64,000 bases of DNA from Dyella acidiphila (GTDB lineage: Bacteria > Pseudomonadota > Gammaproteobacteria > Xanthomonadales > Rhodanobacteraceae), in assembly GCF_014863405.1 (NCBI RefSeq), contig NZ_JACZZA010000002.1:186001-250000 (forward strand), written 5' to 3'. Each line of letters starts with the position of its first letter. Position 1 is the first letter of the stretch. The position numbers and the translations under genes are program-made. Below, in pieces: positions 51,274 to 60,165 of this stretch. A model generated the notes under the pieces. It ran no database searches and had not been told where the DNA came from. It was given only the letters and a program-made list of their open reading frames with translations.

Positions 51274-52008
51274 TTACGCCGCCAGCGGCGCCCAGGCGTG
51301 ATCCGGATAAAAGCGCTGCATCATCCGCTGTACGTAGGCCACCAGGCGGGGATGGCCCAGCAAGGTCTGGCGCAGCGGCGTGTCGAAATACGGGGTAAGA
51401 ATCGAGGCCAACACCCCTAAAGCGGTGGCATCGACGCTGCTGACACGCTCGCCCATCAGATAGCTGCGTTCGCCCAGCAACGCGGCCAGCGCATCGATCG
51501 AGCGCCGGCCCAGGCTGGCGATCTCTTCCCCGTTATGGCGACCGATGCCATGTGCCCGCAGATCGGCTTCCTTGCGCTCCTGCAATTGACAGCGCAATGC
51601 TTCGCGCTCTGATTCCGGTGCGCTGTCGGCAAAGCGTGCCGGCCCTTTGGCGAAGTTCTCCGGCACGATCCAGCGGAACCAGACCATGGCGAAATACAGA
51701 TGGTCTTCCAATAGCCGTTCGATCGCCCAGGCCTCGGCGCGCTGCCGTGCATCCAGGCCTTCGTCCAGGTCCACGCCGTACTTGCGCTCGATATGCGCGC
51801 GGATAAAGGTGGAATCGGGTACCGCTTCGCCATCGTCGACGATGTAGGGCACCTTGCCTTTGGGGGCCAGCGGCGGGATGGTCGATTCGCGCTGGTAGGC
51901 CAGCCCGGCCATCTGCAATTGCACTTCCGTCTTGAGCACGAACGGGCTGGTATCGGGCATGCCGAAACCGGGGCGGGTGGCGTAGAAAACAAGATTCGAT
52001 GCGGGCAT
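51274..52008 (-). CDS. Glutathione S-transferase family protein
   Basis: The 244-residue protein has a thioredoxin-like N-terminal domain (about 5-80) of the Tom37/metaxin-like GST group: TSPFVLKTEVQLQMAGLAYQ, then GKVPYIVDDGEAVPDST in the glutathione pocket. The all-helical C-terminal domain follows, with LLGERSYLMGERVSSVDATALG. It may detoxify or isomerise electrophiles. ATG 52008. Gap of 60 nt to the GIY-YIG gene upstream, same strand. Confidence 0.87.
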   Translation of the reverse strand: MPASNLVFYATRPGFGMPDTSPFVLKTEVQLQMAGLAYQRESTIPPLAPKGKVPYIVDDGEAVPDSTFIRAHIERKYGVDLDEGLDARQRAEAWAIERLLEDHLYFAMVWFRWIVPENFAKGPARFADSAPESEREALRCQLQERKEADLRAHGIGRHNGEEIASLGRRSIDALAALLGERSYLMGERVSSVDATALGVLASILTPYFDTPLRQTLLGHPRLVAYVQRMMQRFYPDHAWAPLAA

Positions 52009-52068: not shown

Positions 52069-52686
52069 TCAGCAGCGGCGCCGCTGCCATGCCATGACTT
52101 CCGCCGGCAGCAGTGCGGCCAGGTCCATGCCGGCCGCCGCGCAGGCGTCCAGCGTATCGCCCAGCGCCTGCGCATAGCGTCCGTCCTGGGCCGGCGGCGG
52201 CAGGTTGAGCACCTGCCATTCGATCATTGCCAGCATGCGCGAGGACCATTCGAACAAGGCATCGGCGCGCTCGGCGAAGCGCTGGTGCAGCCAGTCGCGC
52301 AGCGGTGCGTGCACTCGGTAGCCATAGCGTTCGGCGATTCGCCCGGCGAATGTGCCCGCTTCCTCGGCAATGCCCCGGAACCACTCGGTATGGCCACCTG
52401 CCGCCGCCGAAACCAGCAAGGGGGCGCTGGCCCGGTGCGCCGGCCAGCGCTCGATCAGCAGGCGTTCCATGCGCCGGGCCTCGGCCAGCCGCCCGGTTTC
52501 CACCAGCAGGCCTCGGTCCAGATCGAACAGCGTGAAAAAGCGCGGGTAGAAAGTGCGCAGGCGCTGCACCGGATCATGGGTGAATCCGACCTTGGTGAGG
52601 TCCTCGCCCTGGCACGGCAGCACGTAGACAAAGGTGCGCCCGCGCCGGCCGGTGCGCCAAAGATCCAGTTCGTCCTGCTCGCTCAC
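52069..52686 (-). CDS. GIY-YIG nuclease family protein
   Basis: The 205-residue protein carries a GIY-YIG-like domain of the T5orf172 group in its N-terminal half: FVYVLPC (in place of GIY), then TKVGFTHDPVQRLRTFYP (YIG-type strand with Arg). A helical region follows with MERLLIERWPAHRASAP and GHTEWFRG, the Glu being the likely metal ligand. These domains cleave DNA in characterised relatives, but chromosomal singletons are mostly unstudied. GTG 52686 with GGGATGGG upstream. Divergent from the borosin methyltransferase gene. Confidence 0.78.
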   Translation of the reverse strand: MSEQDELDLWRTGRRGRTFVYVLPCQGEDLTKVGFTHDPVQRLRTFYPRFFTLFDLDRGLLVETGRLAEARRMERLLIERWPAHRASAPLLVSAAAGGHTEWFRGIAEEAGTFAGRIAERYGYRVHAPLRDWLHQRFAERADALFEWSSRMLAMIEWQVLNLPPPAQDGRYAQALGDTLDACAAAGMDLAALLPAEVMAWQRRRC

Positions 52687-52758
52687 CCCATCCCCGCAAT
52701 GACCAATGTCGCTCGACCAGCATCCTTCGACCCGCAATACTGCCCAGGTAGTCGTAGC

Positions 52759-52770: not shown

Positions 52771-53577
52771 TTGAACAAGGCATCATCCGGGGGCAGCCTG
52801 GTCTGCGTGGGGATCGGCATCACGCTAGGCGCGCATATCAGCCCCCTCGCCCGCAGCCATATCGAGCAGGCCGATGTGATCTTCATGGGCGTCTCCGACG
52901 GGGTCGTGGAGCTGTGGCTGAAGGGCATGAACAAGGATGCCCGCAGCCTGCAGCCGTATTACCAGGAAGGCAAATCACGGGTGGAAACCTACCAGGAGAT
53001 GGTCGCCGCCATGCTCGCCGAAGTACGCGCCGGCAAGCGGGTATGCGGGGTGTTCTACGGCCATCCGGGCGTATTCGCCTGGGCGCCGCACAAGGCGATC
53101 GAAGTGGCGCGCAGCGAAGGCTACCCGGCCCACATGGAGCCCGGCATCTCGTCCGCGGACTGCCTCTACGCCGACCTGGGCATCGACCCCGGCAGCCATG
53201 GCTGCCAGTACTTCGCCACCAGCCAGTTCATGATCTACCGGCGCCAGATCGATCCGTCCGCCTGGCTGATCCTGTGGCAGGTAGGCCTGGCGGGTGACAA
53301 CACCAACCGCCGCGTGGCCACCGGGCCGGCCTACCGGCAGGTGCTGGTAGACGTATTGGCGCGCCACTATCCCCTGAAACATGAGGTGATCCTCTACCAG
53401 GCCGCTACCTTGCCGATCCAGTCGCCGCATATCCGGCGGCTGGCCCTGGCGGCCTTGCCGGGGGCTGACATCAAGGCCCTGGATACGCTGGTCGTGCCAC
53501 CTGCCAGCGAGCTGCAGGTGGATGCCGATGTCCTCAAGCGGCTGGATGCGCTGGATCGGAACGAGGTGGATGGTTGA
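52771..53577 (+). CDS. Borosin-type alpha-N-methyltransferase (split, SonM-like)
   Basis: The 268-residue tetrapyrrole-methylase-fold protein closely resembles the split borosin methyltransferase SonM, which N-methylates the peptide backbone of a separate precursor using SAM. It begins GGSLVCVGIGITLG (SAM strand), has Arg70-x3-Tyr74 in SRVETYQEMV, equivalent to the catalytic Arg/Tyr pair of OphMA (R72/Y76), YGHPGVFAW (96-104) and MEPGISSADCLYADLGIDPG (122-141). LPIQSPHI near the end is also shared. It lacks the cobalt- or uroporphyrin-pathway context of porphyrin methylases. TTG 52771 is chosen for its ribosome site and because SonM starts at the same place; ATG 52699 is an alternative. Confidence 0.88.
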   Translation: MNKASSGGSLVCVGIGITLGAHISPLARSHIEQADVIFMGVSDGVVELWLKGMNKDARSLQPYYQEGKSRVETYQEMVAAMLAEVRAGKRVCGVFYGHPGVFAWAPHKAIEVARSEGYPAHMEPGISSADCLYADLGIDPGSHGCQYFATSQFMIYRRQIDPSAWLILWQVGLAGDNTNRRVATGPAYRQVLVDVLARHYPLKHEVILYQAATLPIQSPHIRRLALAALPGADIKALDTLVVPPASELQVDADVLKRLDALDRNEVDG

Positions 53578-53694
53578 GTCCGCCGGGTCCGCGCCGCGCG
53601 CGACTCCATGGCAGGCTATGATGGGCGGCGCCCCGCGGCTCTCGGACCTACGCGGCGAGGGCGCCAGGGGAAACGCAAATAAGCTGATGAAAAC

Positions 53695-53700
53695 AGGGGT
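53695..53700 (+). promoter_or_regulatory. Ribosome site of the borosin precursor gene
   Basis: AGGGGT lies 7 nt before ATG 53708. The site at the earlier in-frame ATG (53687) is too far from its own purine run, so 53708 is the preferred start. Confidence 0.6.
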
Positions 53701-53707
53701 TAGCTCG

Positions 53708-54037
53708 ATGTCGAGTGTGGTCGATTTTCTGGAACAAATGGGCAGCGATGCGCGCTGGCGCGATGCATCGCTGGAAGACATTGCACAGACGCTGGCCGAG
53801 CAAGGAATCGAAGCACCGATGTGCAATGCGATTCTGGCCAAAGACAGCACCGGATTGCAGGCCTTGCTGGGGCAGATCCAGTTGAACGGCGAACAGCTTC
53901 CCGGGCCGCACGAAGTGCCCGTACCGGCAGAACCCGAACCCGAGGAGGAGGAAGAGGAAGACGATGAAACTCACGACGAGCACAAGGCACCCCATGCCGG
54001 TCGCTCGCCCGTTCCTTCGTCAAGCTCTTCGCCGTAA
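53708..54037 (+). CDS. Candidate borosin precursor peptide with borosin-binding domain and acidic tail
   Basis: The 109-residue protein has two parts. Residues 1-55 resemble the borosin-binding domain of SonA: FLEQMGSDARWRD, a G-containing helix AEQGIEAPMCNAI and KDSTGLQALLG line up with the F..Q.G.DA, AHGL and D..KLK.LSG pattern. Residues 56-109 are the candidate core: QIQLNGEQLPGPHEVPVP, then EPEP, a run of Glu/Asp, a His-rich stretch and a Ser-rich end. It follows the methyltransferase gene by 130 nt and precedes a cyclase gene by 6 nt. The N-terminal domain is fairly secure; the core and the N-methylation itself are inferred. Confidence 0.75.
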   Translation: MSSVVDFLEQMGSDARWRDASLEDIAQTLAEQGIEAPMCNAILAKDSTGLQALLGQIQLNGEQLPGPHEVPVPAEPEPEEEEEEDDETHDEHKAPHAGRSPVPSSSSSP

Positions 54038-54043
54038 CGAGCC

Positions 54044-55915
54044 ATGGGCACCACCGGCATCAAGCGCCGGATTTGCTTGGCAGCAGGCACCCTGCTGCTG
54101 AGCATGGTTGCGGGCATCGCGCCCGCAGCCACCAATCAGACCGACGACACGGCGCAACTGTTTGCCCGCGCCGACACGCCGCTGAAGATGCTCGACAACA
54201 CCGCCTACGTGGGCTTGATCGCACAGCTTGAACGCAAGTCCGCCTCGCTGTCGGAGACGGACAAATGGCATTTGCGCTACCTGGAAGCCTGGCAGACCGC
54301 CTTTGTCGGGCAGAACGACAAGGCGCGCGTCTTGCTCGAAGCGATTGCCAAGCAGGCGCCCACCGATGATTTGCGCGAACGGGCGCGCGGCACGCTGATC
54401 AATATCCTGGGCCTGGGACATCGCTACGAAGAAGCGTTTGCCTACCTGGACCAAGCGCTGGACGAACTTCCCAACATCACGCGCAACAGCACCCGCCAGC
54501 TGGTGCTGGGCGAGGCCGCGCAGTTGCTCACGGAGGCCGGCCAATACGACCTGGCGATCAACTACGCCGACCAGCTCCTGCAGATACCGGACGCCAGCGG
54601 CTATAGCTGCACTGGCATGCGCATCAGGGTGGGTGCGGAATTCCACAAGGGACCGCACACCGACAAGCTGCTGTCCTTGCTCGAACATGCCGTCACCACT
54701 TGCCTGGCCAACAGCAACACCTTGTCTGCCGACACCTTGCGGCGCGACATCGCCGCGCTGAAGATCGAGCAGGACAAAAGCGACGAGGCCATCGCGCTGC
54801 TGCAAAACAGCTACAGCGGCATGATGAAACTGCAGTACCAGGACCTTGCCTCGCAATACGACGTACTGCTCGCCGAGGCCTACTGGAAACAGGGCAATCT
54901 CGCACAAGCCGAAAAATACGCAGTGGCAACGGTGGACATCGCCTCCAAGAGCGAATTCGCCGAGCCGCTCAGCAGTGCCTACCAGCTGCTCTATCAAATT
55001 GCCCGACAGAAAGGCGATCTGCGCGATGCGCTGATGTACCACGAAAAATTCATGAGCGCCGACAATGCCCACCTGGATGACGTGCGCGAGAAAGCGCTCG
55101 CCTATCAGGTGGTCAAGCAGCAGGTGGACGCGAAGAAAACCGAGCTCGACACGCTGAACAAGCAGAACCAGATCCTGCAATTGCAGCAGGCACTGGATCG
55201 TAACGCCGTGCAGACCAGCCGGCTCTACATCGTGTTGCTGCTGACCTTGCTGGCATCGATCGGCCTGTGGCTGTATCGCCTGAAGCGCTCGCAACTGCGC
55301 TTTATGCGCATGGCGCGCGAAGACGGCCTCACCGGCATCTTCAACCGCCAGCATTTTGTCGACGAAGCCGAGCAGGCGATGCGCAGCGCCGCCAAGGCTA
55401 CGCGCTGCGCCAGCCTGCTGCTGATCGACCTGGATCATTTCAAGGCGATCAATGACACGCATGGACATATCGTGGGCGACCAGGTCCTGCGGCGCACGGT
55501 GGCGGTATGCCAGCGCTACCTGCGGTCCGGCGACGTATTCGGCCGCCTCGGCGGCGAGGAGTTCGGTATTTTGCTGCCCGATTGCAGCGCCGAAACCGCG
55601 ATCGAGCGGGCCGAGCAGATCCGTCGTGCGATCTATTCGGCTTCCGCCGACGAGAGCCAGGACATTCCGATTTCGGCCAGCCTGGGCATTGCCTCCAGTG
55701 CGCATCACGGCCACGACCTGCGCGACCTGCTGGCCGCCGCCGACGAGGCGCTTTACCGTGCCAAGCGCGATGGACGCAACCGCGTGGTGATCAATATTTC
55801 CGGCTATGGCGCAACGAGTGCGCCCACGCCCAAAGGCGGCGAACGCAACATGGCCGGCCGCATATCGGATATCGCAAAGGATGGCGAACCGTTTAATTAC
55901 GCGACCGAGAAGTGA
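54044..55915 (+). CDS. TPR-GGDEF diguanylate cyclase, copy 1
   Basis: The 623-residue protein has a signal peptide (1-29), a TPR-rich periplasmic sensor (about 40-370, including AYVGLIAQLERKSASLSE and YEEAFAYLDQALDEL repeats), a coiled coil (about 370-400), a membrane segment (about 392-410, SRLYIVLLLTLLASIGLWLY) and a GGDEF domain (about 425-585). The active site is GGEEF (503-507) and the inhibition site RSGD (Arg494) is intact. Such periplasmic-TPR cyclases are common in Lysobacterales. ATG 6 nt after the precursor stop, so co-transcription with the borosin genes is likely. Confidence 0.9.
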   Translation: MGTTGIKRRICLAAGTLLLSMVAGIAPAATNQTDDTAQLFARADTPLKMLDNTAYVGLIAQLERKSASLSETDKWHLRYLEAWQTAFVGQNDKARVLLEAIAKQAPTDDLRERARGTLINILGLGHRYEEAFAYLDQALDELPNITRNSTRQLVLGEAAQLLTEAGQYDLAINYADQLLQIPDASGYSCTGMRIRVGAEFHKGPHTDKLLSLLEHAVTTCLANSNTLSADTLRRDIAALKIEQDKSDEAIALLQNSYSGMMKLQYQDLASQYDVLLAEAYWKQGNLAQAEKYAVATVDIASKSEFAEPLSSAYQLLYQIARQKGDLRDALMYHEKFMSADNAHLDDVREKALAYQVVKQQVDAKKTELDTLNKQNQILQLQQALDRNAVQTSRLYIVLLLTLLASIGLWLYRLKRSQLRFMRMAREDGLTGIFNRQHFVDEAEQAMRSAAKATRCASLLLIDLDHFKAINDTHGHIVGDQVLRRTVAVCQRYLRSGDVFGRLGGEEFGILLPDCSAETAIERAEQIRRAIYSASADESQDIPISASLGIASSAHHGHDLRDLLAAADEALYRAKRDGRNRVVINISGYGATSAPTPKGGERNMAGRISDIAKDGEPFNYATEK

Positions 55916-55968
55916 GGTCGCGCCAGGCACCGCCGGAGCGCGCCGCGCTCCGCGTCATTTGTCCAGGC

Positions 55969-57729
<1,761 letters not shown>

Positions 57730-57801: not shown

Positions 57802-59424
57802 CTACTGCTTCAGATTGGCAGCAACATTGCCCACCACCAGGCTGCCCCAGCCGGTGGTGTAGTCCCAGCCCACCGCAGCCGTTTCGCCATCGTTGTTGCC
57901 CGAGGTCACATCGTGGAAATCGCTGGCATAGTTGGACGCTGCATCCTGGTACAACAGCGGCGCGGCAAAGCCCAGATTGCCGTCGGCCTGCAGGATCAGC
58001 GCCCACGATCCCACGAACAGCGGCGAGGCCAGGCTGGTGCCGCCGATCTGCTGATTGGCCTGCCCGTCCACGATCACCAGTGACCCAGTATCCGGGCTGG
58101 CATCGAAGGCAACGTCCGGCACGCCGCGGTATTGCGAGCTGCCGTTCTGGCCTACGCCCTGCTGCCAGCTTGGAATCGACTCGATCGTACTGGGGCTGCC
58201 GCCGGTGGCGCCTTCGTTCGAGCTGAGGTTGTTCCACACCGTTTCGTTGGTCCAGGTGGTGGTGCCGCCGGTATACAGCTCGGTACCGCCCACCGCGACC
58301 ACATACGGCGAACTGGCCGGATAGCTGGGCGTGATGCCGCCGTTGCCGCATTCGTCCGCACCGGAATCGCCGGAGGATACCGAGAAGGTCTGGCCCTGCG
58401 ACTGCGCCTGCTCGAAGATCTGGTCGTCAGTGCTGGTCGGCGCGTCGCTCTCGCATTCGCCCAGCGATACATTGATCACCGGCACGGCATTGGCCGATAC
58501 CACCGCGTTGTAGTCGGTGGTGAGATCCGAATCGCTCATCGAGGTGGCGTCGTACAGCACCAGCTTGCTCACCCCGCCGGTGATGCCGACGATATCCTGC
58601 GTATCCAGGTCCCACTCGCCATCGCCGCTGGTATCGCTGCTGCCGCTGCCCACCACCTGCACATTGATGGTGGCCAGGTTATTGTTGGAAGCGAACTGCT
58701 GCAGATCGCTCTCCACGTTACTCATGCTGCCCTCGGTGATCACCCCCACCGCGATCGAAGTCGCCGGCGACAGGCTGCTGGCGCCGTAGATCGCATTGAA
58801 ATCGGTGGGGTTGTGCGCCACGGCCGAGCCGCTGGCGTTGCTGTGCACGGCATTGGGATTGATGCGGTGGGCAAAGGTATGCGCCACATGCACGGTCTGC
58901 ACGCCGAGCACCTCCAGCACCGTGCCTTGCAGCGACGCGGGGATTTTCACATCGCTGGCATTGGCGTAGGCGTCGCGGCCATCATGCGTATGCACGTGCA
59001 CGAAGCTGGTGCCGAATGCCGCCTGCGCCGTATCGGCGCGGCCATAGCCTTCGACCAGCATGCGATTGGGCGCAATGCTCACCTTGCTGAAGCCGGCCCG
59101 GGTCAGATAATCCGCCACCGCCTGCGCCTGTGCCTGCGTCGGTGCGTACTGCGCATTGAACTGCGCGGAGCTCAGCGGCTTCTGGCCGCGCTTGGCGAGA
59201 TACGACTGCAGCTGCGCCTGATTGCGCAGCTTAAGCGACACCACGATATGCATCGGCTGCGCAAACGCCAGCGGCCCGACCACGGTATCGCCCTGGCGCA
59301 ATGCCGTGGCGTGCTTGATGGCGACCATGGATGCGGTGTCGCCCTGCGATGCGGCGAACGCCGATGCGGCAGTGGCCACGCCAAGGGCAATGATCAACGA
59401 CTTGAGACGAAGATGACTCGGCAT
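57802..59424 (-). CDS. Secreted S53 sedolisin-type serine peptidase
   Basis: The 540-residue acid-acting peptidase has a signal peptide (1-25), a pro-kumamolisin activation domain (about 38-185) and an S53 catalytic domain (about 205-540). The Glu-x3-Asp pair is EWDLD (Glu270, Asp274), the oxyanion Asp is in SSGDSGA (Asp353) and the nucleophile Ser464 in GGTSLASP. The end, VTSGNNDGETAAVGWDYTTG, is the calcium-binding loop region. These enzymes are secreted as zymogens and mature by self-cleavage at low pH. ATG 59424. Confidence 0.93.
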   Translation of the reverse strand: MPSHLRLKSLIIALGVATAASAFAASQGDTASMVAIKHATALRQGDTVVGPLAFAQPMHIVVSLKLRNQAQLQSYLAKRGQKPLSSAQFNAQYAPTQAQAQAVADYLTRAGFSKVSIAPNRMLVEGYGRADTAQAAFGTSFVHVHTHDGRDAYANASDVKIPASLQGTVLEVLGVQTVHVAHTFAHRINPNAVHSNASGSAVAHNPTDFNAIYGASSLSPATSIAVGVITEGSMSNVESDLQQFASNNNLATINVQVVGSGSSDTSGDGEWDLDTQDIVGITGGVSKLVLYDATSMSDSDLTTDYNAVVSANAVPVINVSLGECESDAPTSTDDQIFEQAQSQGQTFSVSSGDSGADECGNGGITPSYPASSPYVVAVGGTELYTGGTTTWTNETVWNNLSSNEGATGGSPSTIESIPSWQQGVGQNGSSQYRGVPDVAFDASPDTGSLVIVDGQANQQIGGTSLASPLFVGSWALILQADGNLGFAAPLLYQDAASNYASDFHDVTSGNNDGETAAVGWDYTTGWGSLVVGNVAANLKQ

Positions 59425-60165
59425 TTCTTTACTCCTGAATTTGAGGCAAGCGACCCCGTTGGGGCCGCGTAAAACCCCATGACAAGACATGTCGCGCGCA
59501 CGCGACTCCGATTGGTTTGGAAAGTGCCTTGCGATTCCCCGAGCCCGGTAGGCTGCCGCTCCCCCTGCGTCCCCGACGCAGGCAACGCCGATCTTGCGCT
59601 CGAGCGACGGATGCAGATGCGCGTCGCCATGGAATCGTTCGCCGCCGACTCCCTTGGCGAACGCATCGAAATTATTGAGCGCGCAAAGTAGCGTCAAGCA
59701 TTTGCGTTCAGCGCAATGCTGCCGAAATTAGGTGCAGTTCATCAGTGTGCACGCGCGCGCGTAAAGCGGATACGCGTGTACACATCACTCACAAACATGA
59801 TCCGAGCGTGTGCTGCCGCGCGGCCGCTTTTTTCTCGACAGCTGCTTGACAGCTTGCCGCCCTTAAAGCGCCATAACAGCAAGGCAAAGTTCCGCGTGGC
59901 GTTGAGGGGATGTGAAAGACGCTGCGCGCATGCAGGCGAGATCATCGCGTGGTGACGGCCGGCAATGCCCACGCGCAAGTTTGCTGCAAGTATCATTTTC
60001 ACAAAGCTGACGCACCCGCTGCACGCCATCCCGGCATCGGTTCGCATCGCTGACACCGGTTTTCCGCCGCTGTGCCGGCGCGTGTCGCCTGGGTTACGCT
60101 TCGCCGACTCAAGCAACGCGTTGCCTGCCAACCGTGCTGTTTCCACGTCATAAGGGAGTATGTCC
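59425..60165. other. 741-nt divergent intergenic region
   Basis: No protein gene, tRNA or known riboswitch is convincing. The part nearest the sedolisin gene (59425-59690) has ordinary composition. From about 59700 to 60000 it is more AT-rich, with alternating GCGC tracts near 59750-59775 and a TTGACA near 59846. It may contain promoters for both flanking genes. Confidence 0.45.

Follow-up and report, generated by a model that had tools for sequence, protein, structure and literature searches.

The stretch of DNA analysed here, referred to as the window, comes from a soil bacterium, is 64,000 nucleotides long and carries on its + strand a methyltransferase gene, a small precursor gene and two sensor genes in close succession. 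The methyltransferase (MT), a SonM-type peptide backbone α-N-methyltransferase by sequence, is encoded at 52771..53577 (268 aa, TTG start). The stop codon is followed after 130 bp by the gene for a SonA-like precursor protein of 109 aa (53708..54037), and this after 6 bp by the gene for TPR-GGDEF protein 1, a predicted diguanylate cyclase (54044..55915), which is overlapped by 4 bp by the gene for TPR-GGDEF protein 2 (55912..57729). The two sensor genes are not mentioned in the first-pass annotation. Between 52550 and 58000 no site for a sigma-70-like promoter was found, and terminators were found at chance level only. The TTG at 52771 had been chosen as the MT start in the first-pass annotation, the alternative being an ATG upstream at 52699. 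The choice is supported by the nine nearest same-genus loci (window included), in which the start codon closest before the G-S-L-V/A-C-V-G strand is TTG in seven, GTG in one and ATG in one. Two genes of the opposite strand lie upstream: 52069-52737, where T5orf172 matches below threshold (E 0.0023), and 51274-52008, encoding a glutathione S-transferase (GST_N_4, 1.4e-27).

The MT is a member of the Pfam TP_methylase fold family (E 1.6e-20), as would be expected if it were a tetrapyrrole or rRNA methylase of the CobA, CysG or RsmI type with an unrelated small neighbour. That identity is ruled out, down to a vanishing residual chance, by comparisons which uphold its earlier placement in the SonM family rather than among cobalamin or sirohaem methylases. 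In phmmer searches of solved structures, SonM (PDB 7LTC) matched with E 4.4e-74, fungal OphMA-type enzymes with E values between 2e-51 and 7e-43 and the top-scoring tetrapyrrole enzyme with E 2.4e-4, which puts SonM about 70 and the OphMA-type enzymes about 39 to 47 orders of magnitude ahead. The NCBIfam CysG and Cob models scored far under their cut-offs on the MT. In a tree of 32 rows, with unsettled bootstrap and a very long RsmI-like branch, the genome's own two CysG-like rows and one RsmI-like row make up one side of a 99/96 branch, and the window MT groups with the borosin enzymes; clustering with CobA/CysG/RsmI-type enzymes, for which the tree was checked, was not seen. SonM itself falls together with a row that is 92.5% identical to it. 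The presence of a partner with a predicted borosin-binding domain, described below, also speaks against a tetrapyrrole or rRNA methylase.

The motifs quoted in the first-pass annotation (VCVGIG, SRVETYQEM, YGHPGVFAW, MEPGIS...LGIDPG and LPIQSPHI) are all found in the MT, in frame and on the + strand. The enzyme is 48% identical to SonM. Comparison at the SonM residues named in passages of PMC8429565 shows that the R-x3-Y pair, which likewise favours the SonM family, is retained (R70/Y74, equivalent to SonM R67/Y71), as are Y58, Y93, F99, W166, Q55 and Q167 of SonM. Four positions are altered: E146 is A149 in the MT, E173 is D176, and R68 and F179 are both replaced by V. The dN/dS of the MT relative to the nearest orthologue is 0.137, a rough value with high dS.

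A structure model and fold matching predict, for the first ~55 residues of the precursor, a fold like that of the SonA borosin-binding domain. The model places this domain at residues 1-55 (53708..53872), with helices 3-13, 22-31, 36-43 and 47-55. The remainder (53873..54034) comprises a putative core and a Pro/Glu-rich, acidic tail ending in Ser, and has no predicted secondary structure (block pLDDT 51-65). SonA chains were the top matches (E 0.014) of a precursor profile built without SonA; a profile including SonA gave E 1e-17, which is circular, and was set aside in favour of the SonA-free one. The profile and the predicted fold together bear out the earlier description of a 109-residue neighbour with a SonA-like helical N-terminal domain. 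We rejected the idea that the precursor is a chance open reading frame, because a homologue follows the MT in 29 of the 31 regions compared within the genus (the window and 30 fetched ones) and because dN/dS against the nearest orthologue is ~0.26 in both halves, again a rough value with high dS. Judged by sequence and predicted structure, the enzyme and precursor almost certainly represent a type IV-like class of split borosin.

The window core reads NGEQLPGPHEVPVPAEPEPEEEE and is polar and proline-rich. The amide of a proline cannot be N-methylated. We compared the window precursor with 112 related precursors. One group of these has a short hydrophobic stretch followed by P-A/G and then acidic residues (for example NVSCMLMPGKEDE or FVIPGEEE), and a second, the PQ-type group, follows the pattern M/N-x-x-P-Q-x-x-Q-x-P-G-H-E-E. 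The best six-residue hydropathy is 0.58 for the window core; the median is 2.275 among 76 non-PQ precursors and 0.02 among 33 PQ-type ones. Passages of PMC11285071 describe mainly hydrophobic cores as targets of the borosin enzymes tested, and according to passages of PMC11395268 some acidic residues are also methylated in KchMA. We consider it plausible, and somewhat more likely than not, that the polar core of the window is methylated on its backbone. Polar cores, if accepted, would stretch the known substrate range of these enzymes.

TPR-GGDEF protein 1 (Pfam GGDEF 1e-44, TPR_19 6.3e-06) has an N-terminal hydrophobic segment, a TPR sensor and, by hydropathy, a further hydrophobic segment near residues 391-414. 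It carries GGEEF at residue 503 and an RSGD site, which we take to be the I-site motif. Protein 2 (Pfam GGDEF 3.3e-42) retains GGEEF and has HSND at the I-site position. The GG(D/E)EF motif is intact in 81 of 81 TPR-GGDEF relatives drawn from the best 80 of at least 566 relatives, and the first TPR-GGDEF gene of the window has a dN/dS of 0.09 (rough). In both proteins of the window, the sequence suggests a TPR superhelix that is probably periplasmic, joined to a cytoplasmic GGDEF domain. The superhelix of protein 1 (54128..55225) has a Cys pair, residues 189 and 220, that is present in 82 of 82 aligned sensors. Its model (pLDDT 93.2) resembles, by fold matching, the peptide-binding TPR proteins Rap, NprR, AimR and LGN. 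Foldseek ranked LGN first, with APC/C and IFIT1 chains also high, and sequence identity to Rap, NprR and AimR is only 8-14%. TPR superhelices are alike in general, so the match to Rap, NprR and AimR indicates a possible binding shape and not a ligand.

The MT, precursor and sensor genes almost certainly form a conserved operon. They are co-directional in 28 of the 31 same-genus regions mentioned above, which hold 32 of the 33 strong MT matches; the remaining match (G015:C82) is on a short contig and was counted instead, as L072, among the best 80 of at least 566 relatives. One exception is the C5 locus of the window's own genome. The other two have MTs 41% identical to that of the window. An alignment-based scan of contigs returned these relatives, at least 566 among at least 590 matched stretches, of which the best 80 were used; the same scan with a single protein as query gave no match. 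The best 80 come from Dyella, Rhodanobacter, Luteibacter, Frateuria, Fulvimonas, Rudaea, Peristeroidobacter, Steroidobacter, Arsukibacterium and others, and were surveyed with profiles built from same-genus rows, the MT profile also holding SonM. The order MT, precursor, TPR-GGDEF was found in 71 of the 71 contigs among them that have at least 2.5 kb downstream, although these are not independent events, the best 80 being near relatives that in many cases come from related species. Among the nine contigs with less than 2.5 kb downstream, six have the precursor and a partial or full sensor; in one a sensor but no precursor was detected, and two stop at the MT.

Within the same best 80 of at least 566 relatives, a precursor stop lies no more than 100 bp upstream of 78 of 81 TPR-GGDEF genes (score at least 580 and length at least 1500 bp, a filter that drops partial copies and the divergent copy of L145). 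At L145 the precursor is 115 bp upstream of that divergent copy. The precursor-sensor pair is repeated in some loci and extra precursors are found upstream in others; a Luteibacter locus (L128, 6858-9117) has seven consecutive precursors, and there the long acidic tail is confined to the last one, which adjoins the sensor gene. Precursors are present at L012 and L014. The window's own genome encodes three further MTs of this kind, each with at least one precursor. At its C5 locus (L057, 6099-7536) we observed two tandem precursors ending in VDHHSNAVWTEQH and VDHSSHSAWIDND, with neither a long acidic tail nor a TPR-GGDEF gene. At L066 and L067, where the MTs are ~41% identical to that of the window, no precursor or sensor was found nearby, and these loci are perhaps of another borosin type.

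The sensor is also nearly specific to such loci. In the window's own genome, 4 of 4 full-length sensor matches lie beside a borosin locus (at three of the four loci), and 23 other matches cover the GGDEF end only. In a class sample of 369 genomes, ten had an MT and three a sensor, and 7 of 7 sensor matches were beside an MT. Seven MT genomes of this sample had no sensor match. One of them, G363 (L162), has an MT, a TPR hybrid histidine kinase and, on visual inspection, a small SonA-like precursor; the other six have more distant MTs, and in their fetched regions the profiles for TPR, GGDEF and histidine kinase matched nothing. An order sample comprised 247 genomes, of which 61 had the MT and 50 the sensor (both in 45, MT only in 16, sensor only in 5, neither in 181), counts from related genomes whose odds ratio of co-occurrence is not a clean test. 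Here 75 of 88 sensor matches are within 6 kb of an MT, and 13 are away from one, five of these in genomes with no MT at the threshold used.

We fetched 80 MT regions of the order sample, from 59 genomes, which account for 83 of its 92 MT matches (of the nine unfetched, that of G363 was seen as L162). A same-strand TPR sensor is within 2.5 kb in 76 of the 80. No TPR sensor of at least 35 bits was found within 2.5 kb at L203, L260 and L267, the last of which has a histidine kinase with a TPR score of 25, and at L209 the TPR-GGDEF gene is on the opposite strand. The TPR part stays while the output domain is swapped: across the 76 regions the output is GGDEF in 51, histidine kinase in 10 and not detected by profiles in 15, among them L229, where GGDEF is in a separate neighbouring ORF, and L269, at a contig end. 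At L161, L162, L252, L253, L256 and L261 the TPR sensor carries a histidine kinase in place of GGDEF, and L161 has both kinds. At L241, L243, L245, L248 and similar loci, from genomes of ~2.5 Mb, the MT is followed by two to four TPR proteins of ~350-372 aa with no detected output domain.

The sensor also accompanies a near copy of the characterized SonM-SonA pair. One of the 76 order-sample regions with a sensor, L208, is probably from a Shewanella. Its MT shares 92.5% identity with SonM, its 71-aa precursor has the same residue as SonA at 50 of 56 positions compared, and its TPR-GGDEF gene begins 1 bp after the precursor stop.

Co-variation between precursor and sensor was measured over 78 adjacent pairs from the best 80 of at least 566 relatives. 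Partial correlations of precursor distances with TPR distances, given GGDEF, were 0.675 for the binding domain and 0.445 for the tail, and those with GGDEF distances, given TPR, were 0.164 and 0.055; the TPR domains are more variable than the GGDEF domains, and this by itself could yield these values. In loci with two precursor-sensor pairs, pairing agreed in only 18 of 28 comparisons.

Neither neighbour clustering in the best 80 of at least 566 relatives nor tblastn for the pro-kumamolisin type found a protease or exporter common to the loci. A route from cytoplasm to periplasm is thus missing from our best explanation. The window does encode a pro-kumamolisin-type protease (57802-59697, - strand; Pfam Pro-kuma_activ 1.1e-20). 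Its gene lies immediately beyond TPR-GGDEF gene 2 and runs convergently to it, and the product may be a maturation protease or a bystander. Related proteins occur in 2 of 30 same-genus regions, in 7 of 80 named contigs from the best 80 of at least 566 relatives (six by clustering and seven by tblastn, five of these below 45% identity) and in 0 of 80 order-sample regions; two close relatives (L042/L078 and L043/L095) have the gene at the same place. An NfeD-like serine protease and an RND-type pump were seen by eye in four loci each of the best 80.

We favour, with moderate confidence, the reading that a split borosin pair has been built into a signalling operon and that the neighbouring sensor probably takes its product as input. 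The SonM-type enzyme would bind the precursor through its SonA-like N-terminal domain, a step that sequence and predicted fold strongly support, and, as expected from the family, would transfer methyl groups from SAM to backbone amides just after the binding domain. The operon, by its gene order, would also yield the two membrane TPR-GGDEF proteins, whose function is predicted from their domains. The modified peptide would then be cleaved and exported, and its binding by the TPR superhelix would set the c-di-GMP output. That the modified peptide is the ligand of the sensor is possible, though short of probable. We suggest more tentatively that split borosins of this kind may be peptide signals read by a dedicated periplasmic TPR receptor shaped like Rap, NprR and AimR, with an output that is mostly a diguanylate cyclase and otherwise a histidine kinase.

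The same gene order would arise if this were an ordinary split borosin with another target, the TPR-GGDEF genes being merely co-transcribed so that peptide production is coupled with the sessile state. Operon layout alone cannot separate co-regulation from binding, and the sensor is absent from the C5 locus and from the six more distant MTs of the class sample. However, a sensor architecture that is nearly confined to borosin loci, and that persists when GGDEF gives way to a histidine kinase, is more than a plain co-regulated cyclase would need, and we consider this explanation rather unlikely. We think it improbable that the membrane cyclase has the whole precursor, in methylated or unmethylated form, as its partner or inhibitor, with the acidic tail as the active part and no small peptide released. 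Such a role would fit the loci's lack of a common protease or exporter and the tails, which hold a median of 12 acidic residues in precursors directly before a TPR-GGDEF gene (n=84) versus 5 elsewhere (n=26), in sequences that are related and not independent. It sits poorly with a precursor in which no secretion signal is seen by eye and a TPR domain that is predicted to be periplasmic, and in several loci upstream precursors have little or no acidic tail.

The window copy might instead be drifting, its core having lost the hydrophobic residues of its relatives, so that there would be little or no methylation though the genes persist. The core's low hydropathy score and its NGEQLPGP, where relatives have LIAMFVPP or FVIPGEEE, are what this would predict. 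Against it stand the low, if rough, dN/dS values of the MT, the first TPR-GGDEF gene and both precursor halves, the largely polar, Pro-rich cores of two related species (G002 and Dyella mobilis) and the 33 PQ-type precursors, which are likewise polar; we give drift only a slim chance.

Among known systems the window most resembles SonM-SonA of Shewanella oneidensis, the type IV split borosin of 7LTC described in passages of PMC8429565, in having separate MT and precursor genes. The R-x3-Y pair and most of the checked active-site residues are retained, and the precursor domain has the same predicted fold. It differs in its longer precursor (109 aa versus 71 aa) with a long acidic tail, in its polar, Pro-rich core, where the L208 precursor has YLIISH, and in the A and D that replace SonM E146 and E173. 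Unlike in the fused fungal borosins OphMA and dbOphMA, the precursor is encoded apart, and there is no evidence of a cyclic product. The receptors of Rap-Phr, NprR-NprX and AimR, which we take to be the RRNPP group, are cytoplasmic and come from Gram-positive bacteria or their phages, whereas the TPR domain of the window is probably periplasmic, contains the conserved Cys pair and is coupled to GGDEF or, in relatives, to a histidine kinase.

In the passages of the cited borosin papers, bacterial split borosins are assigned no job. Nearly all close relatives have a gene for a TPR sensor next to those for the enzyme and precursor, which suggests a concrete, testable job, that of a peptide signal setting c-di-GMP or kinase output. 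If true, this would be a form of Gram-negative peptide signalling that uses a ribosomal N-methylated peptide and that occurs also next to a near-identical SonMA pair in a Shewanella-like genome; backbone N-methylation would make the signal peptide durable, and Shewanella SonMA, structurally characterized already, would be the place for testing the signal role. If false, the sensor link would still tell when borosin peptides are made. A literature search (diguanylate cyclase, GGDEF, quorum sensing), with the main split-borosin papers outside its scope, found no proposal of a receptor for borosin products, and one pairing borosin with Dyella found nothing. In PMC11395268, GGDEF is among the abbreviations spelled out in the Figure 1 legend, which belongs to a scheme of borosin types, so the GGDEF link may be partly in print already.

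A GNAT acetyltransferase gene lies just before a precursor in 13 of 80 loci (best 80 of at least 566 relatives) and could encode an additional tailoring enzyme. It follows the MT at L086, L090, L092, L097, L104, L110, L129, L132 and L145, and the first sensor gene at L077, L079, L080 and L099; the L092 copy matches Pfam Acetyltransf_3 at 5.7e-26.
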